DNA of 64,000 nt from Nymphaea colorata. Lineage: Eukaryota > Streptophyta > Magnoliopsida > Nymphaeales > Nymphaeaceae. How positions within the stretch are numbered: the stretch's first letter is position 1; every line of letters starts with the position of its first letter. The notes below the pieces were generated by a model. That model searched no databases and was not told the origin of the DNA. It saw nothing but the letters and a program-made list of their open reading frames with translations. Positions 1 through 59,425 of this stretch are shown piece by piece. Location: contig NC_045139.1 in the NCBI RefSeq assembly GCF_008831285.2, positions 5,182,704 to 5,246,703 on the forward strand, written 5' to 3'. The position numbers were made by a program, and so were the translations under genes.

Positions 1-430
1 CTCTAGTTGTAGAGATGTTGATAGATCAGATTCGACTCGAACATACCTTTAATTGTATGTGCTTGTTCAGATATTCACATATTCAGATTCAAATATGAAC
101 AAAGAAAAGTTATATCCAAATATGATCCTAATCTGATTTTGCATTCATGTCTGAATCCAAATTTTGAACCGAGACTAGCTGATTTCAAAATATAAAAGCA
201 TTGAATACGTGATATTTACTTAAAACTAAATCATGTTCAAATCTAAATCCAAATTCAAATCCAATCGGGTATTTATATATCCAAATCTAAATTTGAATAC
301 AATCGGATGTCATTTCTTAGGTCCTAATTTGATCCAACTTCTTAATCGGATATTAATTTTTTTTCTACATCTTATTTTTTTGAGAACATTTTGTTATGAT
401 ATCCAATCTAGATCGGATATAATTACATTG
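1..430 (+). repeat. Dispersed AT-rich repeat, family R1, copy 1
   Basis: The stretch is built from variants of phrases such as AATCCAAAT and TCGGATAT, with a characteristic run 'taaaactaaatcatgttc'. Similar sequence in the same order recurs near 10205-10400, 23360-23665, 33880-34110 and 58180-58430. It has no credible reading frame beyond a short chance ORF. I infer an old, diverged interspersed repeat; its class is unknown. Confidence 0.6.
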
Positions 431-1139
431 GTATCTAGTTGACCGGTGTACCATGAGATCACCCAAATCCCAAAGCTGCACTGTACCTTGCAGCGGAAGA
501 AATAGGGGAGGCATTCGGTCCCTTGTTTGGTTGGCTTCCACTAAAAAGCTTGCAAATTAAGATTTCTCCAATATAATAGAAGCTCCTAGAAAAAAAAAGG
601 TTTTGCTTTCCCCACAACATTTGGTAACATCTCCGCACATTACTCTTCTTCCCTCATGAAGTCGATCATCTCTCCTCTTTTTTATCTTTCACTTGGTTTC
701 TGTCCGTAAAATTAATTATTAGATCAGATGTATACTGCGTGCTGAGTTATAGCCGTTGGGTTTTTGGAAGGTTTCTGAAATGTTGTGGAACTAATCTTTG
801 CAATCGGTCTCTAAGTTACGCCCATTTGGGCCTTAATATACTGTTTAGCTAATTCTAAAACTTTCCATCATGTTTCTAATGTTTATATAATTACATAAGA
901 TTCACTAACAAAAAACTTCTACATAATCTCATATAGAAGCATGTATATATATATATATATTCGACGATGATTCTTGATTTAGAAGACATGAAGCCTGAAC
1001 TTCTTTAGTTTATTTTTAATGGAAGAAAGGCATGTTTTATGTCATGTTCTTAATAAAAAGGAATGAATCATGTTGCTTCTTGCGTTGCCGCTCATTTAAC
1101 ATACTAATACGGTTACTATTATTTAATTCAGGTGAATCA
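431..1139. other. Intergenic, no gene recognised
   Basis: AT-rich sequence with a short TA run near 943-960. I see no coding frame, RNA gene or defined repeat. Confidence 0.6.
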
Positions 1140-3259
<2,120 letters not shown>

Positions 3260-4652
3260 ATCTTCAGCCTCTTCTCTATCTCTATGTAGCTTCTGTTTAA
3301 ACCGGGCATGGCTGGTCAGTAACTAGATATATGACTATAATAACTACCATTTTCACATATGATCACTAACAGTATTGAAATGCCATCTACAAATTATAAG
3401 CTCGTTGCTAAAAGATTCTTGAAGTGATCAAGGCCTGATCAACTCCTAGGAAGCTTGATCACTAGTTGTTTTTACTTTCTGCAAAAGAAGGCAAATGCAA
3501 AGTTGATTTACTGATGAAATGCGTAAGAATTGTCCAAGAATCAACCAAGTAAATGGCGTCTTTTAATTGACCCGGTAAATTCAGTCAATTAAAATTTATA
3601 TTAATTCTTTTAAAACAATATGTTAAAAAATATTTAACCACAAGGTGAGGTATATCGGTCACGTGGTTGTTGTGAGATATTTTAATTGTGCAATATTCGG
3701 TCTTGGTGAACAACACGTAACAATAAAAATAACAGAAAACACACCTCACGTCTTGATATTATTAAAACCATACACAAAAATTTTGGATTTGTCAATCGGA
3801 AACAACGTTTTTGTCAAGCAGTACTGTTGTTCGACTAGGAATCGGCTCATATTGCCCTATTTTTGGATTTTATGAGTTTTACAAATAAATTAATGTATTT
3901 TAATATTGATTTTAAGGCCAAGGTTATTGTTAAAATTAGTTGGGTTGATGGAAAATTTGATTAAAATAACATTTATATCAACAAATTGTATGTTGACTGA
4001 TTTTTATTGGCCTCTTTAATTATACAATGTAGGATTACTAATTCTTTTTTAACTATTCAAATTAGTTATTTTTATTAATATTAAAATTAGTTAGGTAACT
4101 ACATAAGCAATTTTTATGTTCTATATTTCTAGGTTAGGGATAAAAACCAGACTGCTTAAATGCAATGATTAGAGTACTTTTCCTTTTTTCCGATCTAAAC
4201 TTACTTATTCCTATGGTCTCAAGAATAAATTGATGAGAAACATACATTAAATTGATTATTTTTTGAATTTAATCATGTATTGATAAAACATAAAATTGAA
4301 TGGCTAATATAACATCCAAATTTTAACCATGGAAAAATCTTCATTGTTTGTAAAAACAGCTAAAAATAAAACATGTTTTATATCAAATTAGTTTTTATAA
4401 ACATATTATGATTGTTTCATTTTAGCAAAAAATTAGAGGGTACGATTTTTATCCATAACCTAACGGCCTGTAATCTACCAATTTTCCCATGTTTTATATT
4501 GGATCTATAAATTTATGAAAGAACCTTTTAGGTGCATTTAGAATGTAGATATGTTAATTTTTCATGCTCCTTTTAAATTATGAATAAGTTGTAATTTTTG
4601 ACTATCTTCTCAGTCGATTTAACAAAAAAAAAAATCTAAGGATTATATTTAT
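3260..4652. other. Intergenic AT-rich stretch
   Basis: No coding signal, RNA gene or structured repeat recognised. Short ORFs here have no family resemblance. Confidence 0.6.
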
Positions 4653-5311
4653 ATGGGACTTCCCAAGACGGTAAAAGGAGGCCTGGTGGAAAGGATCAAC
4701 AAGGACGTGTTTGTGGGTCATGTGGTGATGAGCCCGATGGCAACGGCCCTGGTGCAATTGGGCTCCACCGATGGCCTCAAGGTCCTCAATAGTTTGATCC
4801 TTGCCATTAAAAGCCCCTTTGTCGATGAGATCCACCAAAGCAGGAAGCTCCCCAAGTTCATAAAGGCCTTGGATTCGGAAGGCCAGGGGTTGAAATCGAC
4901 TGCTTTGGATTGTATTCTGGAGATTGGGTACTTTGGCAGAAAGGAGGCAATCAAGGCCATGATGGAGGAGGATTTGGCGAGGAAGCTAGTGCTCTTGCAG
5001 AAGTCGAAATCTCGTGGTCATGGTGAAGAGTAAAAGCTGGGCAATGCAAGTGGTGAAGAAATGCAGGATTTCTCCACTCCTTGTGAAGATGGTGGCGATG
5101 GAGGGTCCCCTTCTATGAAGGAGGAAGAGGAGGTGGAGGAGGAGGGGGGTTGGAGCAACATCCATTTGATGGGTGCATGGCCAAGTTTGCTATCCAGTTG
5201 GAGGAGAGAGCCTTCAAGCTGGAGGTGTTGAAGAGGGTGAGAGAGGCGGTGGACTCTGATGCCAAAGCTGCTACCATTATTGCTGAGGTCTTGTGGGGAG
5301 CCTGGCCATGA
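4653..5311 (+). pseudogene. ARM-repeat superfamily protein, broken C-terminal part
   Basis: An intronless open frame from 4653 to 5033 (126 codons) contains [36 protein letters not shown] and [20 protein letters not shown], resembling the C-terminal half of a plant armadillo-repeat protein family of unsettled function. After the stop at 5031-5033 the family's final segment resumes in a different frame at about 5159-5311: HPFDGCMAKFAIQLEERAF then LKRVREAVDSDAKAATII and EVLWGAWP before a TGA at 5309-5311. The usual N-terminal ARM repeats are missing; the first ATG is probably fortuitous. GC content is much higher than in the flanks, as expected for former coding sequence. I infer a truncated, frameshifted copy. 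Family assignment rests on remembered motif similarity. Confidence 0.68.
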
Positions 5312-6093
5312 ACCTTGGTGGTAGTGGTGGTGGAGAAGGAGGTGTCCGGTCGCCGGCGGCCAGTGGGTGGTTCAGATCATTTTTTTTTTCTGCACATATG
5401 CTAAAGGGAGAGTGTTGTGTAATTGTAGGTTCGGAATTGTCTAGATCTGTAAAATGATTTTAATTATTAGAGGATTTGCCATCTGCATTTATTTTTTCTC
5501 ATTGAATTGCATCTTCGACATGTGTAGCGGTGAAGGGGTCGTCTCTCCTCTTACTTTTTGCACCTGTCAGGTTCTTCTGGAGAGACTCTTTTTTGTTTTC
5601 TTTGGACATGAATTATGAAAGTTAGTGCTTGGGGATCCAGAAGGTCTCTTGCAAAAGATGATTAGAAACAACGTGTTGCACTCTTTAACATTTCATACCC
5701 TTTTCGTACAAAATATAGACATGAAATCAATACAATAGAAATCCACCTAAAGTGGCTTTACGATGCATAAATAAGATCTTAACAGTCAATAACATCATTT
5801 TAAGCTTATAAAACTCACTTTCGTGTTGATTTCCATAGTGTAAAACATAAAGATCAATAAAGTTTGGGTTAAAATAATAAGTGGTCGTTATGTATATATA
5901 TGCTTTGTTAAATTTTTTAGCCTTTCATATTGATACAGACCTAGACCCATTTGTACAAGATATGTATTTTTACTTAGTTTTTGGTTCAAGATACCAAACA
6001 AGGACACCATTCATCTACATCCAAACAATTCTAATGATAGTAAAGGTGAGATTGGAAGCATGTACGCAGACAAATTATGACTGTATGCATACA
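5312..6093. other. Intergenic, no gene recognised
   Basis: AT-rich sequence with no supported reading frame or repeat. Confidence 0.55.
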
Positions 6094-6169
6094 TGTGTGT
6101 GTATGTGTGTGTGAGAGAGAGAGAGAGAGTGAGAGAGAGAGAGAGAGAGAGAAAGAGAAAGAGAGAGAG
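6094..6169. repeat. Compound (GT)n(GA)n microsatellite
   Basis: A GT-rich run passes into GA repeats with minor interruptions. It lies just beyond the 3' end of the terpene synthase exon relic. Confidence 0.9.
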
Positions 6170-6295
6170 TGTATTGAATTTAATGTATTACTCATTTTAT
6201 TACATGAGGAACATAGCGTCATAAGTAGGATTCGGTTAATGGGCGCCAACATGGTTGAAAGTGGGAAACAGCGACTGGTGGTTTGCTTAGGCAGT

Positions 6296-6550
6296 CTAGA
6301 TGGGCTTGACAATGAGAGAGCAGACATCCATGAACTCATGCTCCAAGACACCAATACCATCTTCATAGTCGTACATGCACTAGGAGACCCTCACAATATT
6401 GAGAGCCACGTTCATGAAGGAACGAGAGAAAGCGTTCTGTTGCTGCTGCTAATGTGCCAAGAGCTGCTCCGTGTTCATCCTCCTCCATGTATACTTCAGC
6501 AAGTCCCTTATACATTGTTGTGCTTGCTCATCCGCTACTCTTGTCTCGTA
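6296..6550 (-). pseudogene. Terpene synthase, isolated last exon with two stops
   Basis: On the minus strand a splice acceptor (TTAACAG, ending at 6551) is followed by a frame beginning YETRVADEQAQQCIRDLL, then KYTWRRMNTEQL, FSRSFMNVALNIVRVS, a stop, and CMYDYEDGIGVLEHEF ending in SLIVKPI and a normal stop at 6296-6298. This matches the order of the terminal exon of plant terpene synthases (the helices behind the metal-binding site, with the R-x-x-Q-C-x-Y-x-x-G-D-G motif and the PI C-terminus), closest in feel to the TPS-b group. The glutamine before CMYDY is a TAG and a second TAG lies after LLAH, both in frame. No upstream exons with the DDxxD motif were found, so this is a lone exon relic. 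About 85 codons. Confidence 0.85.
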
Positions 6551-6551
6551 C

Positions 6552-6868
6552 TGTTAACAATAAGATTGAAAGATAACCGTTTTAGAGAGACTTAAAGAAA
6601 GAATCCATATAAGATCAATCAAAATTAATGATAAAAGAAAAAGAAAATCTTTTTACAAAAATTAGATTTAGTTTCCAATTTAATTTCTCATGTTTATCGT
6701 CACCAAGATTATAGTGTTAATGATAATGTTGAAAGGCAACCGTTCTAGAGAAATATAAGGAAAAAATCCCAGCAAGGTCAATCAAAATTAATGATAAATA
6801 AAAAAAAATCTTTCCACAAAAATTAGATTTAGTTTCCCATGTTTATCGTTACCAAGATTATAGGAACT
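6552..6868. repeat. Tandem duplication, two units of about 160 bp
   Basis: Unit 1 (about 6552-6713) and unit 2 (about 6714-6868) share 'tcaatcaaaattaatgata', 'acaaaaattagatttagttt' and 'accaagattatag' in the same order and spacing. Unit 2 has a small deletion. The first unit abuts the splice acceptor of the terpene synthase exon relic, so the repeat may be duplicated intron sequence. Confidence 0.85.
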
Positions 6869-7008
6869 TCAACTATTTAAGCTTGTTCTATGCATTGTGT
6901 AACCAAAGGTCATGGTGGCCTTCCATGGTAAAAAACCATGCACGTTTAATGAAAAAAAAATTTCATTGTTGGTTTTTATTTGTTTTGCTTCTTCTTTATT
7001 TTTTAACT

Positions 7009-7020
7009 TGGTATCAGAGC
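7009..7020 (+). other. Retrotransposon primer-binding-site-like sequence
   Basis: TGGTATCAGAGC is complementary to the 3' end of initiator methionine tRNA and is the usual minus-strand primer site of plant LTR retrotransposons. It is preceded by a pyrimidine-rich stretch ending ACT, as after many left LTRs. It points along the + strand, opposite to the adjacent gag-protease relic, so it probably marks a second, mostly deleted element. Confidence 0.6.
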
Positions 7021-7198
7021 AGGATGTTTGATGAATAAGAATGAAGCCAATAAGTGGCATGCAGACGACTAAATATGTCGTTGCCTTCTTCACCAAAGCG
7101 AAGACTCGATCCTATGAAGAAAATCTTGAGCATATTGACAAACTTCACACACATGTAAATCAAAAGTTTCATGAGGAAAAATTAACGACAAAATTCTA

Positions 7199-8593
7199 CT
7201 AAACTTTAATGCCATAAGTAAGAGTCCTTAATTCTTTATCAAAAAAACTTGCTTTTCCAACTCCAACAACTTTATTGGAGGTGCCATCAACTATAGTCAC
7301 AGTTTTATTTTCACTTTTATTTTCTACATCATTCAAGTTATTGTGAAAACATGACATATGTTCAGATGCACCTGAATCCACGATCCAAGAGTAATTTCTA
7401 GTAAGAGATGGGTTTGAGTTCATACCTAACTGATTTTTAGGTGAAGTGAATGCAGATGGGGCAGTTACCGTTTTGGTGTTTTTCTGGCCATTCAAATTTT
7501 TAATCATCTTTGCAATAGTAGCAAGAGTAACCTCACCTTCGTCAGATTGAACCAACTGTGTCTACGGTTTACACTACTGCTTTAAAGAATCTCCCTTGTT
7601 GGTAGGTCTGCTATGTAAATTCGAGCATTTTTCTCAAACATGCCCTTCTTTTCTACAGCATGTGCACACTGGTCATTCGCCTCTATTTCTGAACAACGAC
7701 TGAACCTCCATTTTTTCTTCATGTTTTTTGCTGATCGAGGCATTAAATGCAACTTTTTCAATGTTTTCACTACTAGTTTTAGTATCAATAGTGTCACTGG
7801 TCTTCATAATCGTCCTCCTTTTTTCTTCTCGTAAGAGGGTGTTACACACCACATCCAAAGATGGCAGATCAGACGTCTTTAACATTTGACCTCTTGCTTG
7901 TTCGTAATCTTCACCTAAACCAGCCAATAGTTTGAAGGTTCTTTTTTTATCTCGCTGCCTCTTAATACAAGCAAGGTCGGCTGAAAGCAGACAATGAGAG
8001 TCCGTCTCATTACGCTTCCCTTTAAGCGTAGCAATGTAGTCGCTCAAGGTCATATGACCTTTTTTCAACTCATAAATCTCATGTGTGAGTTGATACATGT
8101 CCGTCGTACTATATTTTTCACTATATAACTCTTTAGTAGCATTACATATTTCCTTTGCAGTTTCAAAATAATAAAAACTCTCAGTGATTTTAGCGTCCAT
8201 AAAATTCTGTAACCAAGACATTACCATAGGATTACTGGACTCCCACTCATCATAGTTAGGGTCGTCAATGGCTGGTTTAAATTTTTTCCCATTAACAAAC
8301 CCAAGTTTACATTTTTCACTTAAGAGCAAAGTAGCAGCTTTAGACCATGACATATGATTTAAGTCATTCAATGGAACATTTGTAATTTTGAGAATGGTGG
8401 TACCTGTCTCCATGACAATATGTTTTTGTGTTGATGATCCACTAATAGAGTTGAGTATATGAGAATCACTGGTTCCTTCGTTGGCATCTATTGACTTGTG
8501 GCACTTGTAAATTTCGTATCTCTTCACAGGATTGTCCAAAAAATCTGAAAGTTGAACTAAAAATACTAGACACGTGTCTGAGTCCAATGCCAC
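7199..8593 (-). mobile_element. Ty1/copia retrotransposon relic, gag and start of protease
   Basis: The frame from 8593 to 7673 (306 codons) has the copia-type gag order: MSWSKAATLLLSEKCKLG, MVMSWLQNFMD, YSEKYSTTDMYQLTHEIYEL, KKGHMTLSDYIATLKG, LAGLGEDYEQARGQML, LPSLDVVCNTLLREEKRR. The zinc-knuckle region (about 7800-7600) is frame-shifted and lacks a clean CCHC box. A second frame, 7555-7199, contains the aspartic protease signature WIVDSGASEHMS. The sequence then stops; integrase, reverse transcriptase and RNase H are absent. Upstream, around 8640-8990, the sequence resembles copia LTR or leader sequence, but no primer site in matching orientation was found. A truncated, non-autonomous relic. 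Confidence 0.88.
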
Positions 8594-8599
8594 CTTGCT

Positions 8600-9669
8600 C
8601 GATGTCTAAATCGCCTCCAGTCAAAAACGCGACCCAGAAAAGTCACGTCTAGAATGCCCTGTCTGCGAGTGTTGCCTCCCGTGACAGCAGCTGCGACACT
8701 TGTAAAATGCCGGTTTATCCCCAGCTCCTTACCACCACAGATTTACTTGGTTCGGATTTTTCAATCCTACATCCACGATAAGAGCATCACGCAGCCTCAT
8801 TCTATTTTCTCATTATACTTCTTTACAGATTACAATGAGTATATATGGCATTGGAGGAAGACGAACAAGGAAGGCATCAACGATGCTAAGACGGCTATAC
8901 AAATGGCTATAAGAGAAATATATGGCTACAAGAGCAAATACTAACAAGGTAAGAAATTGTTGGCAAATTCGTCTGCGTGATGCTGAAACGTCGACTTCTC
9001 ATAAGAGAAAAAGAGGAACACTTGTCACTATCACTCATTATGAGTGACTTATACTGCTATGAAGGGCGTTAACATGCCCATTCTGTTTATTAACCTTGTA
9101 GGATGTGTTGCTGCTTCGCAGACAAGAAGGCCAGAGTATAATCCCTCCCTCTATGCACTTCAAAATTGTTCCACAAGTGATCACCATATTCATCATCATT
9201 ATATAGCACACACATAACAAGGTTGCAGAGACTTGATCCAAAGTCTGTCGCTTCATACTCTTCAGATAAATTTTTCCTTTCTTTAGTAACAACATGGAAA
9301 ATATACAGCTATATTTCATAGGGGAAGGTAAAATATAACCGTACATTTTTCTTATAGCTGAATATTTTATAGATCAAATATATACTAAACGATAAATTTT
9401 TTAGCACTTCAAAATGATTGGTTGAGGTGTGGGGTTGGGAAGCTGTGGACCAGCAGATACTGTTGTTTTGTATTACCAGTCAAAGATGGCTATTTTCTTA
9501 CTGTGTGGAGGCCTATTGGCGCTATGTGAGAGTCTGTGTAGATTGTTTTTTTGTAATGCTTTTCCTTTCTTTTTTTCAATATTCTTTGTATGTCTTAGTG
9601 GTGAGACGAGTATGAAGTATGAACTATACAAGCTTCCAGCATTTTATATATATATATATATATATGATA
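8600..9669. other. Possible copia LTR/leader remnant and intergenic sequence
   Basis: The piece around 8735-8850 ('ttggttcggatttttcaatc', 'cctacatccacga', 'tacaatgagtatatat') has the flavour of plant copia LTR sequence, and it borders the gag relic. No terminal TG..CA or paired LTR was found, so the assignment is tentative. The rest up to 9670 shows no gene; there is a short TA run at 9641-9664. Confidence 0.35.
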
Positions 9670-10012
9670 GTATGGAAAATGCGTTTTTTTTGAAAAAAAA
9701 AATATGAAAAAAATGTGATAAGTTAACTAGCTGTTTTAAACTTTAAAAAAATGTGTTTTTGAAAAAAATGTTAAAAATGAAAAAAAACATGTTTTTATTT
9801 TTAATGTTTTTTTTAACTTTTTTTAATGTCAAACAGTTTTTTCTCATTTTCTAATTTTTATTTGTTGCAAACTATTTATTTTTTAATGTTTGTGTTATTA
9901 ATTTCTCATTTATTTTATTTTTATTCAATTTTTAGTTTTTTGTAACTTTTAAAAATTTACCGTATTTTTCTTGTTTTTTCCAAGCTTGTCGTATTATATA
10001 TGAGAAAAACCT
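9670..10012 (+). repeat. Dispersed T-rich repeat, family R2, copy 1
   Basis: A low-complexity T/A-rich segment with the diagnostic string 'gtgttattaatttctcattt' and an end resembling 'gtattatatatgagaaaaa'. It recurs at 59090-59425 in the same orientation and at 33455-33745 inverted. Confidence 0.65.
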
Positions 10013-10204
10013 AGAATGCTTTTTGTAATTCTTTTCCTTTCTTTTTTTCAATATTCTTTGTGTTTTTCAATTCGTCCTAATGGAAAGCGTTTGATTCATC
10101 GAAAAAAAGAAAATGATCTTTTATTAGGGGCGTGATTTGTGTCGGAGCTAACATCCTAGAGAATTGAGAATATGGACTTAAAAGATTAGCCTCTCTCCCT
10201 CTGA

Positions 10205-10400
10205 TTTTAAGTCCCACCCTTTTCAGAGAGGGTATTACCATTTGAATCCGAATTCGAAAACTGATTTCACAATCTAAATCCGATCCAAAAAATGATTTCA
10301 CGATCTAAATCTGATCCAAATCTGATTTTATTTTGAACCAAGTCCAACAATAAGAGCATTGGATACAAGGTGTTTATTTAAAATTAAATCAAATAATATG
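10205..10400 (+). repeat. Dispersed repeat, family R1, copy 2
   Basis: Shares 'atctaaatctgatccaaat' type phrases and the segment 'agcattggatacaaggtgt' followed by 'ttaaaattaaatca' with the copy at the window start. Confidence 0.55.
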
Positions 10401-10815
10401 TCTTTGAGTGGACTCGCTCTGTTTAGGCGTCGAGAAATTTCTCGAACGTTCCCCATGGAGCAATTTCTCTAGAATGCAGACGACATATATGCTGCACTCC
10501 AATTGACAAGTGTCTCCCTTCCTATCAAAGACCTGAAACAACCCTGAAACCTAGAAGTGGGGGCAAGATGAGTAATTTCGAGTTCTCGACAAATCGACAA
10601 ATCTTTCTTGAATTATATTTCTAATTTGATAAAAATTTCCTATGAGCTTGGGCTTGAGTTAGCTCATCACAGAAAAGAATCAAACTGAGCTCATTAACAC
10701 TCTTTCCAGACACAACTAAAATTTGAAGTGATAAATAATAGACTCATCATCCAGAAGAAAAACATCGTTATTTTGGTTGATTGGTATTGATTTCCAGGCA
10801 GTATTCGTTTTGGCA

Positions 10816-11766
10816 AGCTCCAACAGCTAGATCTGCAGGTGCATAAAGCAGGAAGTTCAAGAGAAAAAGAAGACTTTATGATTAGAAATCTTTCCTTTGA
10901 AAAATTCTTCTTTCAATACACAAGATTTTCCCATCATTTCCTGCCCCATGTACCTAACTAATCCTACTGAAACTCAATTTTTCATGAACAAAACAACAAT
11001 TTTCGACTCAAGAAGAACATGTAACAAATTTAGAATTCAAGTTTCCCTTCAGCGATTGCATTCACCATGTGTCAGTCGCATGCGTTCTAGGATCAGGTGC
11101 CAAGTCCCCCTCCAAACTTGCACAAAATCAACCACGGACAAAAGGCCGAGAAATTATACAAGAACGTCATCGTCCCAAGGGGAATCGACAAAGCTCGCTC
11201 AGAAGCTGTGCTCCTCATCTTCCGCAAGGGCGATGGCGGTGGTTACCAAAGGTTATGGTGGTGGTGGCGGCCCTGGCAGCTACGGAAGTTCTGCCGCCAC
11301 CACCACCATAACCTTTGGTAACCACCGCCATCGCCCTTACGGAAGATGAGGAGCACAGCTTCTGAGCGAGCTTTGTCGATTCCCCTTGGGACGATGGAGT
11401 CGACGTTCTTGTATAATTTCTCGGCCTTTTCTCCGTGGTTGATTTTGTGCAAGTTTGGAGGGGGACTTGGCACCTGATCCTAGAACGCATGCGACTGACA
11501 CATGGTGAATGCAATCGCTGAAGGGAAACTTGAATTCTAAATTTGTTACATGTTCTTCTTGAGTCGAAAATTGTTGTTTTGTTCATGAGAAACTGAGTTT
11601 CACTAGAGTTAGTTAGGTACTGGTAATTTCTCATGAGGCAGGAAATGATGGGAAAATCTTGTGTATTGAAAGAAGAATTTTTCAAAGGAAAGATTTCTAA
11701 TCATAAAGTCTTCTTTTTCTCTTGAACTTCCTGCTTTATGCATCTGCAGATCTAGCTGTTGGAGCT
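10816..11766. repeat. Long near-perfect inverted repeat (hairpin locus)
   Basis: The left arm (10816-11270, 455 bp) and the right arm (11294-11766, 473 bp) are reverse complements, separated by a 23-bp spacer. By eye they differ by only a handful of substitutions plus 12-bp and 6-bp insertions in the right arm (near 11620 and 11397). The outer ends are AGCTCCAACAGC and GCTGTTGGAGCT; the inner ends are GGTGGTGGTGGCGG and its complement. Flanks outside the arms are unrelated and no target-site duplication is obvious. The arms contain mirrored open frames of up to about 150 codons that match nothing I know; because both strands of each arm are partly open I do not call a protein. A transcript through it would fold into a long double-stranded RNA, as at plant inverted-repeat siRNA loci. 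That role is inference. Confidence 0.95.
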
Positions 11767-16247
<4,481 letters not shown>

Positions 16248-16642
16248 TTGGTAGAAACCAAACCAGTCAGGGACAAAAATCAAATCATTTAAATGTGATG
16301 TTTAAAGTGTGTTTCTTTTTTTTCTTTTTTTTTTGGCAATCTTATGATCTTAAAAATAGGCTGATGCAAAACATATAAGTCTATCATTTTTTGGACTTTA
16401 ATAATGTTTTCATAACAAGAAAAAATGAACGGTTTCCACAACATCAACATTTTGATAATACAAAGACCCATATTTTTTGTAAAAAAAAAAAAAACTTGAA
16501 TCGAAGCCATTTTTAATAATAAATAATTTTTATAAATATGTTAGGATGCTTAAAATTCATTTAAAATGTTTTTTTAGCACAAATGTAAGGAGTCTGGTTT
16601 TTGTCTCTATCTCTACCAATTTCTCTCTCTCTCTAGAGTCTA

Positions 16643-16645
<3 letters not shown>

Positions 16646-16708
<63 letters not shown>
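16646..16708. repeat. Compound (TA)n(GA)n microsatellite
   Basis: The same TA-then-GA arrangement as at 16146, preceded at 16622 by a short CT run. Confidence 0.95.
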
Positions 16709-18516
16709 CTGAAATCTAAATTTCTATTACATTGGGCTGAAGCATCCGGAAATAGACGCACACACAAAATCCAAATCTGGTATTAATTTAGCTGCTGTAT
16801 GTAAATTGGATTTAGCATCCAGATCGATGTTTTAGATCGGATCTAGATTGAACCCCAAGAGAGATCCGGTTGCGAGGGGATTCATGCAACAACAGTTTAT
16901 GTCAAATATCTCAACCTGCAAGTGCCGGTAACCCAAACCTCAGCTGTTCCACCTTTTCCTTTTCATGTATGAAAGCTCTCTGTGAATAAATTTTGACCCT
17001 TTCTCCTCTTCCGCACATCATTACAGTCTCCACCACCTTCTTGAAAAGAGGATTCTTCAGTTGTGGTCGGAAAAGTGCAGAAATGGGTGCTCGTTTCAGG
17101 CCAAAGCATGGCAGTAAATCTTGATGCAGTTCTTGTACTGCTTTGGACTGAAGGGAGCTCCTAATTCTTCATTTTTCCTTGGTAAATCTTTTCCTGCTTC
17201 CGTTTGGCTGCCATCTTATAGGGTTCGAAGTTTGGCAGATTGCAAGGATTTGGCGTTCAAGGTGAGCTCTGGAGCTCAATACTCTGCTTAATCTGTTTTT
17301 CTTGGTGCATAAGAGAAAGACTGACAACTACGTGGACATGGAAGATGAGTTTCTTTGTGTTTGTGCTGCCGTTATTCTTTCTGTTATAGTTTTGGAGAAT
17401 TGGCATCTGTATTCAAGCACAGAGAGAGAGAGAGAGAATGTGTGTTTAGATACATATCTGGTCTTTTGATTCGTGAGATCGTTCAGGTTCACTCTAGGGT
17501 TCTTTGCATGTTCATAATCAAAAGTTGTCTCTGGTCCAAATATTCAAGCAATGAACTAGAGCAGTAGGATTCTGTTTGCAATTTTTTAGTAAGAGATTAA
17601 TAGAAAAGCACATGTCTGGATCCTTCTCATCCTTGCATCTTTTATGTTTTTTCTTTAGTGTTTTTTTCTCATTAACAGATTTGATGTTTCAACGAAGTAC
17701 AGTTAGTAGCAGATCATTCGTCGTTCTTGGTTTCCTGATCATCTTCCCCAGGACTTGACTGTGTAGATCAAAAATTACTTCATTCTTGATTGTTGTTTTC
17801 CAACCAGAGGATGCTTATTCTTTTGATCAAAATGAGCAGCAAATACTTTTTGATGGACAGAGAGAGAGGGAGACCAGACTCAAATTCATGGCCATCATGA
17901 ACTCGATCTACGCACTTTAAGTCCATTAGATCGAACCGTTATAAATCTTGCAGCTGCTTTGCAGGTAAAACCCAAGGTGCAGAAGATGCAACTATTGGAG
18001 TCAAAGGCACAAATCTGAGTCGGAGTTCGAAGAACTTGTGATTTTATTACAAGATGTTGATAATACCGAAGGTGAGAAGTTTAAAAAAAAATTAAAAGCA
18101 GAGAAATTCCGAATTAATATTCTGCAATCTATGTGTCATTGTGACAACATGAAAATTTAGTTTACTTTAAATTAATAAGAAGATTAATTTCCTCTATCTT
18201 ACATTTTTTTGACAATTATTTAGTTGCAAAGATCTTTAAATATCTGAGATCAACATCTGTGCCTATGCGTTAAAAATCATTAGGTTTTCCAAAATATTTT
18301 GCTTCAAAGTAACTTTTTTTTTTTTTTGCTTCACTAACTTAAAAGGTTGTTGTTCATCTTTCTTCTTCTCCTTTACAATCTTTTACTTGCATGATACCTT
18401 CATAGATTCGCCAAAATGCCAATAATATCGTGAGATGTTGTATCACCCGCCACATGATTTTATGTTATGCATTATGTCTGTTGTCCTTCTGTTTGGCATT
18501 AAAAACAACGTATGAG
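16709..18516. other. Unassigned sequence, possible transcript leader
   Basis: Moderately GC-balanced sequence at about 16900-17300 resembles untranslated leader or exon-like sequence (pyrimidine-rich tracts, potential donor after 'ggcgttcaag' near 17260), but no frame of useful length or recognised protein is present. A GA run lies at about 17420-17437. Confidence 0.3.
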
Positions 18517-18560
18517 TGTTTCATGAATCTACCTCAAAATTGGGGTAGATTCATGAGACA
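18517..18560. repeat. Short inverted repeat, 20-bp arms
   Basis: The left arm (18517-18536) and the right arm (18541-18560) are complementary with two mismatches around a 4-base loop (AAAT). The arm phrase 'tttcatgaatctacc' resembles sequences near 44714 and 53020, so this may be the collapsed ends of a small element. Confidence 0.75.
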
Positions 18561-19542
18561 TTTACTTCCCTCCTTCATTTTTTGCATTGTATGTTAATTT
18601 TTTACATTATTGGTTGAGGAAATTAACTTCATTCTTTTGTGTAATATATTCCACATAAAGAGAGACATATAGAGAGAGAGAGAGAGAGAGAGAGATTTTG
18701 CCAAATAAGAAAAAAGTATAGAACAGTGCAATTCAGAATAGCTATGCAATCATGGCTTGTGAGTCCACAGTATTCCTCCATTGTGCAAAAAGCATTAATG
18801 TCATGCTAATGGGCCCTCTCCCCCTCAATCTTGACATGGAAATCATGCAACCACAGGGTCATGTCCACTTCCTTCCTTCCTTTTACTACTTTTCTCAAAA
18901 GTTTCTGCCCATTGCTCTTGCCCACACATGACTTAAGGGTCTCAACTTAGAAACAAATATCAGAATCTTTTACTACGGATTGCTTTTCTTTTGTGTTCAA
19001 TTGCATTGCTGGATATCAACTTCACACCTAACAAATATAAGAAAAAGGTGGAAAATTTTCCATTTCAGGGACAATCTTTTGACCATGACATTGAATACAG
19101 GCCTCCCTTTTTCTGATTTTCCCGATATAGGTCTAACACTTGCTGATAACATTTCATTAAGGCCGCCTAACTTTACAATTCTCTCACAACTCTGCATAAA
19201 ATGTCAGTGAAGATAGAGGGACCGTGAGGCCCATAAGAGGAAAAAAAAAAATTGACGCTCCTCTTTTGGGTTTATAGTAGAAGGAGGGCCCTAGACTGCA
19301 GTTTCAAAGAAAAGCGTAACATAAATAACATAGCTCTTATTATATACTCAGTGTACAAGCTATCATGCATATGAAATATTTCCTGACTTAAGCGGATTTT
19401 AATTTTTTAACGTTTACTTAGGGAACCGCTTTTCGGCTTAAAACCCTAATACTTTCTAAATTAAGGCTTGCTTAGGGCCTCGTTGAACATAGGGTACATC
19501 CTTTAAATCAAGTAGTGCACTTGTTAATGTTTGTAGGATAGA
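18561..19542. other. Intergenic with GA microsatellite
   Basis: Contains a GA run at about 18670-18696. No gene or RNA recognised. Confidence 0.55.
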
Positions 19543-30479: not shown

Positions 30480-31280
30480 AATTTTTAAGTTAGAAAGGAG
30501 CAAAAAAAATTAATATTTTAATTTGGAACCCAATTTTTGTTTTGAATGGAGAATTGGGTAATTTCATTTCCAAGAAAAAAGAGGAAAAAAAAAGCGTGGT
30601 TTCTTCTTTACCTTGGAGAATCTTACACTAATGACATATACCATTAAAGGGGTTTGATAGCTTTGGATTTAAGAACAAAAAATTAGAAAGGAGCAAAAAA
30701 ATTAATATAATTTTAATTTGGAAACCAATTTTTGTTTTGTATGGAGAATTGGGTAATTTCCTTTTCAAGAGAAAATAGAGAGAGAAAAAAAAAACTTGGT
30801 TTCTTGTTTACCTTGGAGAATCTTACACTAATGAATCTACCATTAAAGGGTTTTGATAGCTTCTGATTTAATATCAAAAAATTAAAAAGGGGCAAAAAAA
30901 ATTAATACTTTAATTTGGAACCCAATTTTTGTTTTGTATGGAGAATTGGGTAATTTCATTTCCAAGAGAAAATAGAGAGGAAAAAAAACTTGGTTTCTTC
31001 TTTACCTTAGAGAATCTTACACTAATGACATCTACCATAAAGAGGTTTGATAGCTTCCGATTTAAGATCAAAAAAATTAGAAAGGAGCAAAAAAAAATTA
31101 ATATTAGGTTTGATAGCTTCGGATTTAAGATAAAAAAAATTAGAAAGGAGCAAAAAAGTTAATATTTTAATTTGGAACCCAATTTTTATTCTGTATGGAG
31201 AATTGGGTAATTTCATTTCCAAGAAAAGAGAGAAAAAAAAGATTGATTTCTTCTTTACCTTGGAGAATCTTACACTTAAG
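30480..31280 (+). repeat. Tandem array with period near 195 bp
   Basis: The anchor GGAGCAAAAAA (GGGGCAAAAAA in one unit) occurs at about 30496, 30689, 30889, 31083 and 31146. Between anchors the order is constant: 'ttaatttggaacccaattt', 'tatggagaattgggtaattt', 'accttggagaatcttacact', 'ggtttgatagcttc'. The fourth unit is cut to about 63 bp. The array begins about 100 bp after the R3 repeat. Frames of 60-87 codons inside it are by-products of the repeat. Confidence 0.93.
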
Positions 31281-33454: not shown

Positions 33455-33745
33455 TAAAATTTTGGAGTTTTAAATGGCTAGGTTTTTCTAAGGTATAATA
33501 TGGTGAGCTTGAAAAAAACGAAAAAAATATGGTTAATTTTAAAAAATTTAAAAAAACTAAAAATAAAAAAAATAAAATAAGTGAGAAACTAATAACACAA
33601 ACATCAAAAGATAAGTAAATTTGCAACAAATAAAAAATAAAAGAAATTGGCATTTAAAAAATAAGTTAAAAATACATTTTTTTGTTTTTTAACATTATTT
33701 TAAAGTTTGAAATGGCAATTTAATTTATCGTGTTTTTTTGTGATA
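33455..33745 (-). repeat. Dispersed repeat, family R2, inverted copy
   Basis: The reverse complement of the pattern at 9670 and 59090: 'gagaaactaataacacaaac' and 'ggagttttaaatgg' are the complements of diagnostic strings in those copies. Confidence 0.65.
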
Positions 33746-45644: not shown

Positions 45645-47199
45645 CTACATCTTAGGCGTCAGCGATGTGATGACCACTTTTGATTCAGTTGGGGACCTCA
45701 CAGTTAAGGTGTCAAACTTGGAGAAGAGAACTGCTAACACCATCCTTCCAGTTAGCACCACTATGTCCTTCCCTGGGCACTGCTTGTTATGGGGCGTCGC
45801 CGCCTCTGTTTCCGGCCCATTCGACCACCAAACCCGCTCAAGAAGTTTCTCGCCTTCCTCGCCGACGAACCGGTCCGGCACGAACTCGGTCGGCCGGTCA
45901 AACAGTTTTGGATCTCTCATAGCAAATGGCTGGTACCCACACATGAGCTCCCCCTTCTTCACCAAGAACCTTGCTTCATGGGACTCTACGATCAAGTCTT
46001 TCCTTGCCCTTGCATACTGCCGCGGCACCGGCGGTTGGATCCGCAGCGCCTCGTAGGCAACCGATTTGATCAGTGGCATGGCATTGAGGGCTTCAAAGTT
46101 CAGATCGCCCTTCTCCTTTATTGCATTCCTTGCTTCTTCTGCCAATCTGTAGTGCAACTTGCTTCCCTGGTTTGCAACATATCTTAGCATGGTGGGTAGG
46201 TACAAACTAAAGCCTGCTACAGCATTAAGCCCAAACATGAATATCAAATTGTGAATCGCTTCTTCTTTTGGGACTCCATATTCATCCTCTGCAATGTCCA
46301 GTGCCTTTCCCCCATAAGTCTTAAAGAAGTCATAAAGCTTCTGGTGGTTCCTGTTGCATTTTCATGAAATTTTAGCATTAGTACAACTCAAATAATATCA
46401 AATATGCATAGGATTGTAATGAAAACGATAATGAAAGAAAAGTAGAAGTGACTGCATTTTGGTGTCTTTAGGCTTACTTCTTCACAGTCCAGTAAGGCCA
46501 AGGGAAGGTATGGAACACCAACTCCTCCAATGGATGTGGAAGCCCAAGGTTTACTCCAGGAGCAAGTTGTGGTGCAAGCCATTTCAAGCAAAGGCTCGCA
46601 CCCTCTTCACCAACACTGGCCGGACCTGGCTCCAGAGGATCTCGCCCGAGCAATGTTCGCGACAAGAAATTGAAAACACAACTACCAAACGCATCGTTCG
46701 CCTTCGCTTCCGGCAGTTGACCTTGGAGCTTATCCCATGTTTCCTCGACGGCTCGCCGGATCTCCGGCAACCACCGGCGAGCATTGAGCATGAAGAGGTG
46801 CTGGACATAGGACTTGAGCCTGGTGTGCTGGTCCTCAGCCGTGTCCAAGTAGGACAGGACCCTGAACCCACCTGTGAAGTCAGTGCTCACCATGTAATGC
46901 CCACCAAGCACATTGCTAGTATCCACAAGTGAATTGTCAAACAAGGTCCTGAAACTCTTGGAGTCCAGGAGGATGACAACCCTTGGATCACCGGGGAACC
47001 CCGGCGGCGTCGGCGGCATGTTGGTCCGGAAGACAGTGCTGTTATATTTCCGCGCCCGGTCTGCGAAATACTTGTCCGGGCCGTCGAACCAGAAGTAATG
47101 AAGCCTATCTATCAAGGCACCAAAATATGAAATTTTGGTTATCCCTGGCATCTCTCTCAAAGGGAGCTGCTCTTCTTTCTTCTCTGTAATTTCAGCCAT
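45645..47199 (-). CDS. CYP74-family P450 (hydroperoxide lyase-like), gene A
   Basis: Two exons (47199-46478 and 46350-45645) join in frame to 475 residues across a GTAAGC...CAG intron splitting codon 241 after its second base. CYP74 enzymes rearrange fatty-acid hydroperoxides without O2 or reductase, giving aldehydes (lyase), allene oxides or divinyl ethers. Seen: PLREMPG near the N-terminus, FRTNMPPT (57-64), FTGGFRVLSYLD (108-119), NFLSRTL, I-helix FGLNAVAGF (280-288), ExxR as E341/R344, QYARARKD, VKKGELMCGYQP, and heme loop NKQCPGKD with Cys432. PPT, FLSRTL, EEAIHNL and QYARARKD favour CYP74B (13-hydroperoxide lyase). The position matching Arabidopsis AOS Phe137 is Leu98 and the Ser155 match is Ser116. 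No evident plastid transit peptide. The start MAEITEKK was chosen because gene B shares it and the TATA-like box sits 70 bp upstream. An earlier ATG at 47259 lies too close to that box. Exact product class is uncertain. Confidence 0.92.
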
Positions 47200-47268
47200 T
47201 GCTAAACAGTAATGCTCGACTGCTCCAATATTGCAGGAACTATGGGAATGAGGTGCCATGGCATGGCC

Positions 47269-50181: not shown

Positions 50182-51835
50182 TCAAGATTTAGGCGTCAAT
50201 GAGGTGATGATCACTTTTGATTCAGAGGGGGCCTTCACAGTAAGAGTATCAAACTTGGAGAAGAGAACTGCTACCACCAACCTCCCAGTTAGAACAACTA
50301 TGTCCTTCCCCGGGCACTGCTTGTTGTGGGGGGTTGGTTCCTCTGTTTCAGGCCCATTGGACCACCACACTCTCCCAATCAATTTCTCTCCTTCCTCGCC
50401 GACGAACCGGTCCGGCAAGAACTCCGTCGGCCGGTCGAACAGTTTTGGATCCTTCATCGCAAATGGTTGGTAGCCACACATGAGCTCTCCCTTCTTCACC
50501 AAGAACCTTGCCTCATGTGACTCTACGATCAAGTCTTTCCTTGCTCTTGCGTACTGCCTCGGCACCGGCGGCTGGATCCGCAGGGCCTCGTAGACGACGG
50601 ATTTGAGCAGTGGCATTGCGTTGATGGCTTCGAAGTTCAGATCACCCTTCTCCTTAATTGCATTCCTCACTTCTTCAGCTAACCTTTTGTGCAACTCGAT
50701 TCCTTGGTCTGCTATATGCTTTATCAAGGCAGGTAAGAACAGGCTGAAGCCTGCTACTGCGTTAAGGCCAAACATGAAGATCAAATTGTGGATTGCTTCT
50801 TCTTTTGTGATTCCGAATTCATTCTCGGCGATCTCCAGTGCCTGGCCGCCGTAAGTCTTGAAGAAAGCATAGAGTTTTTGGTAGACCCTGTCAATTTGTT
50901 TTTAACCACCATCAGAATGAAGGAGAGAACACTTAATCAATCAGATAAAAAATTCAATTTATGAAAACTGGACGCTAGATAAATTCGTGTATAAATTTTC
51001 TGGTTTTCTATTGAATATAACTAGTTGAACATTATTGTAATTTTTTTTTGAACAAAAAAAAATTCAGTTTCTGAAAGTTTTCTTAATTTCTTAACTGTGA
51101 TCTTCAAGCATACCTCTTCACAGTACAGTAAGGCCAAGGAAAAGTGTGGAACACAATTTCCTCCAATGGCTGAGGCAACCCAATGTTGACACCAGGAGCA
51201 AGCTGTGGAGCCAGCCACTTTAAGCAGAGGCTTGCACCTTCTTCACCTACACTGGCCGGACCGGGCTCGAGCGGGTCTCTTCGGAACAAAGTACGTGATA
51301 GAAAATTGAAGATGCAGCTGCCGAACGCGCCGTTCGCCTTTGCTTCCGGCAACTGACTTTGGAGTTTATCCCAGGTTTCCTCCACAGCACGCCGGATCTC
51401 CGGCAGCCATCTGTGAGCATTGAGCATGAAAAGGCGCTGGACATAGGACTTGAGCCTAGTGTGCTGGTCCTCAGCTGTGTCCAAGTAGGAAAGGACCCTG
51501 AACCCGCCTGTGAACTCAGTGCTCATCATGTAATGACCACCAAGAACATTGCTGGTATCAACAAGCGAGTTGTCAAAGAGAGTCCTGAAGCTCTTTGAGT
51601 CCAGGAGGATGACAACCCTTGGGTCGCCGGCGAAGCCCGGCGGCGTGGGCGGCATGTTGGTCCGGAAGACCGTGCTGTTGTACTTGCTCATCCGGTCGGC
51701 GAAGTACTTGTCCGGCCCATCGAACCAGAAGTAATGGAGCCTATCTATGAATGCTCCAAAGTATGAAATTCCAGTAACCCCAGGTACCTCTCTCAAAGGG
51801 AGTTGGTCTCCTTTCTTCTCCACAACCTCAGCCAT
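50182..51835 (-). CDS. CYP74-family P450 (hydroperoxide lyase-like), gene B
   Basis: A tandem paralogue of gene A: two exons (51835-51114 and 50887-50182), the same exon lengths (722 and 706 nt), the same intron phase (GTATGC donor, GACAG acceptor), 475 residues. Most residues match gene A, including FRTNMPPT, NVLGG, FRVLSYLD, FMFGLNAVAGF, the ExxR pair, QYARARKD and NKQCPGKD. Differences cluster in surface-type segments, for example LFLPALIKHIADQGIELHKR against LYLPTMLRYVANQGSKLHYR, and GRVWWSNGPETEEPTP near the heme loop. The intron is longer (about 226 bp against 127 bp). The start MAEVVEKK was chosen because a TATA-like box lies 72 bp upstream; an open extension to 51958 would begin upstream of that box. 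The gene appears intact. Likely oxylipin metabolism; lyase versus other CYP74 activity is not settled by sequence alone. Confidence 0.92.
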
Positions 51836-51906
51836 TGATCTTGCAATATCCCTCAATTGCTTCAATGGAGAAAAATATGTGATGAGATGACTCTTGGTAT
51901 TGGCTC

Positions 51907-51913
51907 TTATAAG
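51907..51913 (-). promoter_or_regulatory. TATA-like box of CYP74 gene B
   Basis: CTTATAA on the minus strand, within TTCTTATAAGAGCC, about 72 bp upstream of the ATG at 51835. The spacing mirrors gene A, so the core promoter was probably duplicated with the gene. Confidence 0.55.
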
Positions 51914-52098
51914 AATCCTCTGGATGTCTTGGTCGACTTGACTACAAATGTTTGTCATTTTCCATTGCTAACTTTTGGATTTTCCCGATATCTTCGTTTG
52001 GACTCAAACTGTTCAAAAAAGGAGTGCTGCTCCACTTGTTGTAGCATCCCCAAGGAAATAATTGTCCACATTATTTGGTCTCCAATCCATATCTTCTA

Positions 52099-57323: not shown

Positions 57324-57539
57324 AATAAAACGACCGAGAAACTTTTTGTACCTACTATTTATGTGTAGGGGCTTTTACCAAGATTTCCAACCTTTAAATC
57401 CGAATGGGGTCAAATTGAACCCGAATCTAAATAATACATTCCGCAACTAAAAATTTTTAATTTTTTTAATATAATTTTTTTTTTCAATTCATTAGGATAG
57501 AACCATGGCCCAGGCTGACTCTCCTTCCCTCCGCCCCTG

Positions 57540-57738
57540 GAGGGCGGAGGGAGGGGGGGGGGCCGCCTAGGCCATGGCCCCACCCCAACCAAATTAAAAA
57601 AAAAAAATCTAGTGTAAAAATTGAAAAAAAATTTTGGTGTCAATGTATTTTTTGAATATAAGTTCAGTTTGGCCCTACCCAAATCCAATCCACAAAACCT
57701 AATCCCCATTTGGCCCGCCCTTGCGAAAAATCCTAGCT
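57540..57738. mobile_element. hAT-like MITE family H3, probable copy
   Basis: The right end TAGCTCTGCCTCTG complements CAGAGGCAGAGCTA, the typical terminus of this MITE type. The left part is a G-rich run after 'ggagggcggagggaggg', followed by 'ggccatggccccacccc' and an AT stretch. 'ggccatggccc' and 'aatgtattttttg' also occur at 23700-23790, indicating a second, partial copy there. The left boundary is uncertain because of an adjacent palindrome (about 57525-57552). Confidence 0.55.
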
Positions 57739-59089: not shown

Positions 59090-59425
59090 ATGTTTTTTTA
59101 AAAATGTGATATATTAAATAGTTGTTTAAAATTTAAAAAACAACATTTTTTGAAAAAACGTTAAAAACTAAGAACATGCGTTTTAAACTCGTTTTTTTTT
59201 TAGTTTTTTCAGTTTTTTAAATCCTAAACAATTTTTTTTCATTTTTTATTTTGATTTGTTGTAAATCTACTTATCTTTTGATGTTGGTGTTATTAGTTTC
59301 TTACTTATTTTATTTTTTCCTTTATTTTTAGCTTTTTAAAAATTTTAAAAATTTATTGTATTTTTTTTTCAAGTTCACCGTATTATACTCTTGAAAAATC
59401 TCCCCATTTAAAACTCCATAGCATG
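59090..59425 (+). repeat. Dispersed repeat, family R2, copy 3
   Basis: 'gttggtgttattagtttctt', 'taaaaatttattgtattttt' and 'gtattatactcttgaaaaat' follow the order of the copy at 9670-10012. Confidence 0.65.

Follow-up and report, generated by a model that had tools for sequence, protein, structure and literature searches.

Positions 10816..11766 of the 64-kb stretch of DNA analysed here (the window) form a long, nearly perfect inverted repeat, which is best read as a putative young hairpin locus of the known endogenous inverted repeat or proto-MIRNA kind. The repeat itself is confirmed as real and far beyond chance: its longest exact inverted match within 1500 bp covers 157 bp, compared with 13-16 bp in 10/10 windows shuffled under a second-order Markov model. 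Alignment and shuffles thus bear out the structure that the initial annotation had reported at this place, whereas the sizes given there, arms of 455 and 473 bp and a spacer of 23 bp, are off by 1-2 bp and are replaced by the following measurements:

10816..11271, + strand, left arm, 456 bp, defined by the repeat alignment
11272..11292, no strand assigned, spacer or hairpin loop between the arms, 21 bp, sequence CCTGGCAGCTACGGAAGTTCT
11293..11766, - strand, right arm, 474 bp, the reverse complement of the left one, with 447/456 aligned columns identical and an additional 12 bp and 6 bp

GGTGG-type repeats, likewise pointed out at the outset, are present at the inner end of each arm. The spacer and the right arm (11338-11345) have the word TACGGAAG in common; this word occurs twice in the window, and at least two occurrences were found in 15/100 shuffles.

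With its long near-perfect repeat and short loop, the locus has the structural feature expected of an endogenous inverted repeat (hpRNA). The predicted fold of its 951-nt RNA is a single rod with an energy of -850.6 kcal/mol, compared with a mean of -251.5 kcal/mol for 20 shuffles (z -71.3); the long double-stranded fold anticipated for a read-through transcript is indeed what folding of the segment returns.

The two arms differ by nine substitutions in 456 aligned columns, located at left-arm positions 10839, 10946, 10962, 10963, 10967, 10977, 10981, 11139 and 11225, and the right arm is longer than the left by 12 bases (11621-11632) in one place and by 6 bases (11397-11402) in another. Exact matches of 23, 106, 157, 28, 57 and 46 bp account for 417/456 aligned columns. 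This divergence is patchy: a 36-bp patch holds 6/9 substitutions together with the 12-bp gap, and elsewhere there are three substituted positions and the 6-bp gap. Some 36-bp stretch with at least six substitutions appeared in 62/100000 random placements, a figure that has to be read with the patch having been picked after seeing the data. The initial annotation had called the arms young or maintained, which is fair given so few differences but passes over their clustering; outside the patch, the arms appear either young or kept alike by conversion. At a substitution rate of 7e-9 per site and year, their age would be ~1.4 My (9/456 differences) or ~0.5 My (3/420 outside the patch). We give these estimates no weight, because gene conversion between the arms would make the figures too young.

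At the divergent patch, the right arm contains a smaller inverted repeat of its own:

11583..11636, + strand, inner inverted repeat of 10 bp (TCATGAGAAA/TTTCTCATGA), right arm only, spanning the 12-bp insertion and most of the clustered substitutions

The left-arm stretch matching 11583..11636 has no inner inverted repeat of at least 7 bp. Local template switching has been put forward as a way in which RNA hairpins arise (PMC8794818), and the inner 10-bp hairpin would fit such an event; we offer this as a suggestion drawn from two arms and no outgroup, and six bases of the 12-bp insertion are left unexplained by it.

What might the arms have been before they became a hairpin? On moderate evidence they look like a gene fragment with an exon-intron-exon arrangement, which we would delimit as follows:

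10798..10838, + strand, putative exon-like piece A, 41 bp, reading xSIRFGKLQQLDLQ (SIRFGKLQQLDLQ), called from splice-like signals
10839..11096, + strand, putative intron-like stretch, 258 bp, GT...AG, 35.3% GC
11097..11271, + strand, putative exon-like piece B, 53.7% GC, reading VPSPPPNLHKINHG... in frame with piece A, end uncertain

Piece A is preceded by TTTCCAG, which lies outside the left arm, and followed by a GT; this GT (10839) corresponds to AT in the right-arm copy (11743), a difference that is not polarised. The intron-like stretch, called from splice-like signals and composition alone, is found in the right arm as well, there with the 12-bp insertion. Pieces A and B join into a single open frame (SIRFGKLQQLDLQ-VPSPPPNLHKINHG...) at boundaries that were placed by eye from the splice-like signals, and a join with boundaries a few bases off gave no such open frame. 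On the right-arm copy, the exon-like frame has a codon score of 7.1, the top of six frames (next 1.9), which sits between the 95th (4.8) and 99th (9.9) percentiles of the window null; codon usage was trained on 949 codons from four ORFs of the window's P450 region, two of them without a Pfam match. The 6-bp gap between the arms preserves the frame, and the substitutions in piece B comprise one that changes Q/E (11139) and one that is silent in this frame (11225, CGC/CGT). In both arms the reading enters the GGTGG stretch, read as WWWW, which is why the end of the exon is uncertain. A frameshift that would link the LHKI reading to a glycine-rich AVVTKGYGGGGGPGSYGSS reading was rejected, being indistinguishable from chance without the parent. 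Because the exon-like reading passes the outer end of the left arm into the flank, the direct copy may be the one on the left, with the right arm as its inverted and truncated counterpart.

The earlier view of the arms as protein-like, GC-richer gene-fragment sequence is moderately supported by their exon-intron-exon look, by the GC contrast between piece B and the intron-like stretch and by the single open frame. No parent gene was found in the window. By DNA, the repeat matches the 64-kb window, besides itself, only over 20 bp (6899-6918, E 0.22), and four translated readings match it, besides the arms, only at E 0.74 or worse. Pfam returned no match for the exon-like peptide, in searches with two peptides of arm/flank readings and a further one; four other arm/flank readings gave chance-level matches in two cases (E 0.086 and 0.12) and no match in two. 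In PDB, the exon-like peptide had chance-level matches only (best E 0.079, or 0.51 with a longer peptide), and a search of viral contigs with it produced 15 pattern matches and no relative. Rfam at gathering scores has no match at the inverted repeat, its sole match in the window being MIR319 (17078-17169).

From an abstract perspective, the history of the locus may be partitioned into its making and its possible use. Its making is, to our mind, best read as a segmental inverted duplication of a gene fragment. In such a scenario, a gene segment consisting of part of an exon, one intron and part of the next exon would have been copied at the DNA level and set head to head with a second copy of itself across a 21-bp spacer, with fold-back or template-switch replication as the probable route. 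The kept intron-like stretch, if indeed an intron, would argue against a retrocopy and favour an inverted duplication at the DNA level.

How might such a locus act? If a promoter in either flank were to read through it, the RNA would fold back into a rod of ~456 bp. Processing of this rod into 21-24-nt siRNAs would fall to Dicer-like enzymes, going by precedent chiefly DCL2, DCL3 and DCL4 and, to a lesser degree, DCL1. The siRNAs might act on their own locus via DNA methylation and, if it survives with enough identity, on the parent gene. A scan for bacterial promoter sites, which is uninformative on plant promoters, found 7 compared with 9.8 expected. We tentatively favour this account, an inverted gene-fragment duplication at the DNA level whose read-through RNA would be a hairpin diced to siRNAs, with a confidence somewhat short of even, and its steps of transcription, dicing and silencing are argued by precedent only.

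Alternatively, the same inverted gene-fragment duplication may be inert, either shut down completely or never read through, and subject to neutral decay. An inert duplication comes close to a working hairpin in likelihood, and we regard it as a serious, if lesser, possibility. An accident at the DNA level requires no function, and the differences between the arms include a GT found in one copy only and two gaps. Moreover, the observed/expected ratio of CpG in the arms (0.67 and 0.69) is about that of the window (0.65), which points to no extra decay from siRNA-directed methylation. Nothing speaks directly against inertness, low divergence saying only that the arms are young or kept alike.

A working hairpin would find its counterparts among known small-RNA loci. 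Established MIRNA genes have stems far shorter and less perfect than that of the repeat, which in this respect departs from the proto-MIRNA model. What it would share with that model is a hairpin arising from inverted duplication, a route by which most miRNA genes related to TEs or pseudogenes are reported to have arisen in rice and Arabidopsis (PMC3237417). Arabidopsis IR71, like the present locus a long near-perfect intramolecular duplex, is reported to be processed by DCL2 and DCL3 and secondarily by DCL4, with small RNAs dropping in a dcl1 mutant; its dsRNA, however, measures ~3 kb and comes with proven 21-, 22- and 24-nt siRNAs (PMC12825306), whereas the duplex predicted here is ~0.46 kb. 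In Arabidopsis Cvi-0, the VIM4-VIM2 inverted repeat similarly brings inverted gene sequences near enough for a read-through hairpin, and its siRNAs are described as reducing VIM expression in cis and trans (PMC13213937), but two genes and shown silencing there stand against a putative gene fragment here. A hairpin of maize/teosinte is reported to yield 22-nt siRNAs targeting a pollen lipase gene; for this Teosinte Pollen Drive hairpin (Tpd1), both the 22-nt siRNAs and the target cleavage sites were shown (PMC11390486). Like Tpd1 and further hp-siRNA loci of maize, the repeat would be a non-coding hairpin locus, one that could target a gene elsewhere. New small-RNA regulators can come from hairpin loci of such a kind, and a few proven cases in the sources cited extend from natural gene silencing even to selfish drive (PMC13213937, PMC11390486). 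Should the present locus be transcribed and its parent gene still exist, it would provide one more natural test case, for which it is now a well-formed candidate.

A different origin would make the repeat a fold-back or Mutator-type transposon (or a Pack-MULE), with long terminal inverted repeats that amount to nearly the whole element and with captured gene sequence, a reading that we consider improbable. Such capture would account for the exon-intron content, and fold-back elements are known with long arms and a tiny spacer. However, exact words reveal no target-site duplication at the repeat ends, although a decayed or displaced one is possible: the bases just outside differ (...TTTTGGCA on the left, GTAAATAT... 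on the right), and the 60-bp flanks share no exact word longer than a 6-mer, whose two occurrences lie at unmatched distances. Neither is there a second copy of the repeat in the 64-kb window, and the continuation of the exon-like reading past the outer end of the left arm also speaks against an element. Six frames around the repeat, read with X at stops (1-12602 in its three + frames, 8999-19500 in its three - frames), contain no Pfam domain at E 0.01, in a mode without positive control. With a single copy in the window and no target-site duplication by exact words, a transposon origin is without support here.

Within the favoured reading as an inverted gene-fragment duplication, a more specific version would have a very young, active hairpin silence its parent in trans at a pre-MIRNA stage, its arms reshaped by local template switching; this strikes us as more doubtful still. 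Fold-back reads are a known sequencing artefact, but an assembly or library fold-back chimera is very unlikely here, because the arms differ by nine substitutions (6/9 of them within 36 bp) and two gaps, differences unexpected from a copied read, and their outer flanks are unrelated to each other.

Judging by its contents, the window is plant DNA: it holds an miR319 sequence and a MIR319 match, a P450 ORF, a copia-type gag ORF and a GT47 exostosin-domain ORF (Pfam/Rfam/PDB). The copia gag ORF (7673-8593) and MIR319 lie on either side of the inverted repeat, which is 5.3 kb upstream of the MIR319 precursor match:

17078-17169, + strand, MIR319 precursor match (Rfam), with the mature sequence at 17143-17161

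The latter positions carry an exact TTGGACTGAAGGGAGCTCC, which we take to be miR319. A dispersed repeat has copies at 9759-10014, 33463-33704 and 59213-59418 that are pairwise 75-81% identical, the first of them ending ~0.8 kb left of the inverted repeat, and a 42-bp direct repeat (9548-9589 / 10020-10061) is 98% identical over copies 472 bp apart. An array of related units, with aligned stretches 87-92% identical, occupies 30487-31276. Two tandem P450-like copies on the - strand (45645-47259 and 50182-51958) are ~84% identical in DNA; in each of them the downstream ORF has a match to Pfam p450, and the upstream ORFs are without a Pfam match at E 1. For the P450 ORF at 50182-50784, the closest PDB entries are CYP74A allene oxide synthases, with three matches at E 1e-10, all of them CYP74A. 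Finally, a second, less perfect fold-back lies at 57407-57675, self-inverse at 69% identity, which at a guess is MITE-like or a decayed hairpin; the segment 57400-57682 folds at -108.4 kcal/mol (z -7.0).
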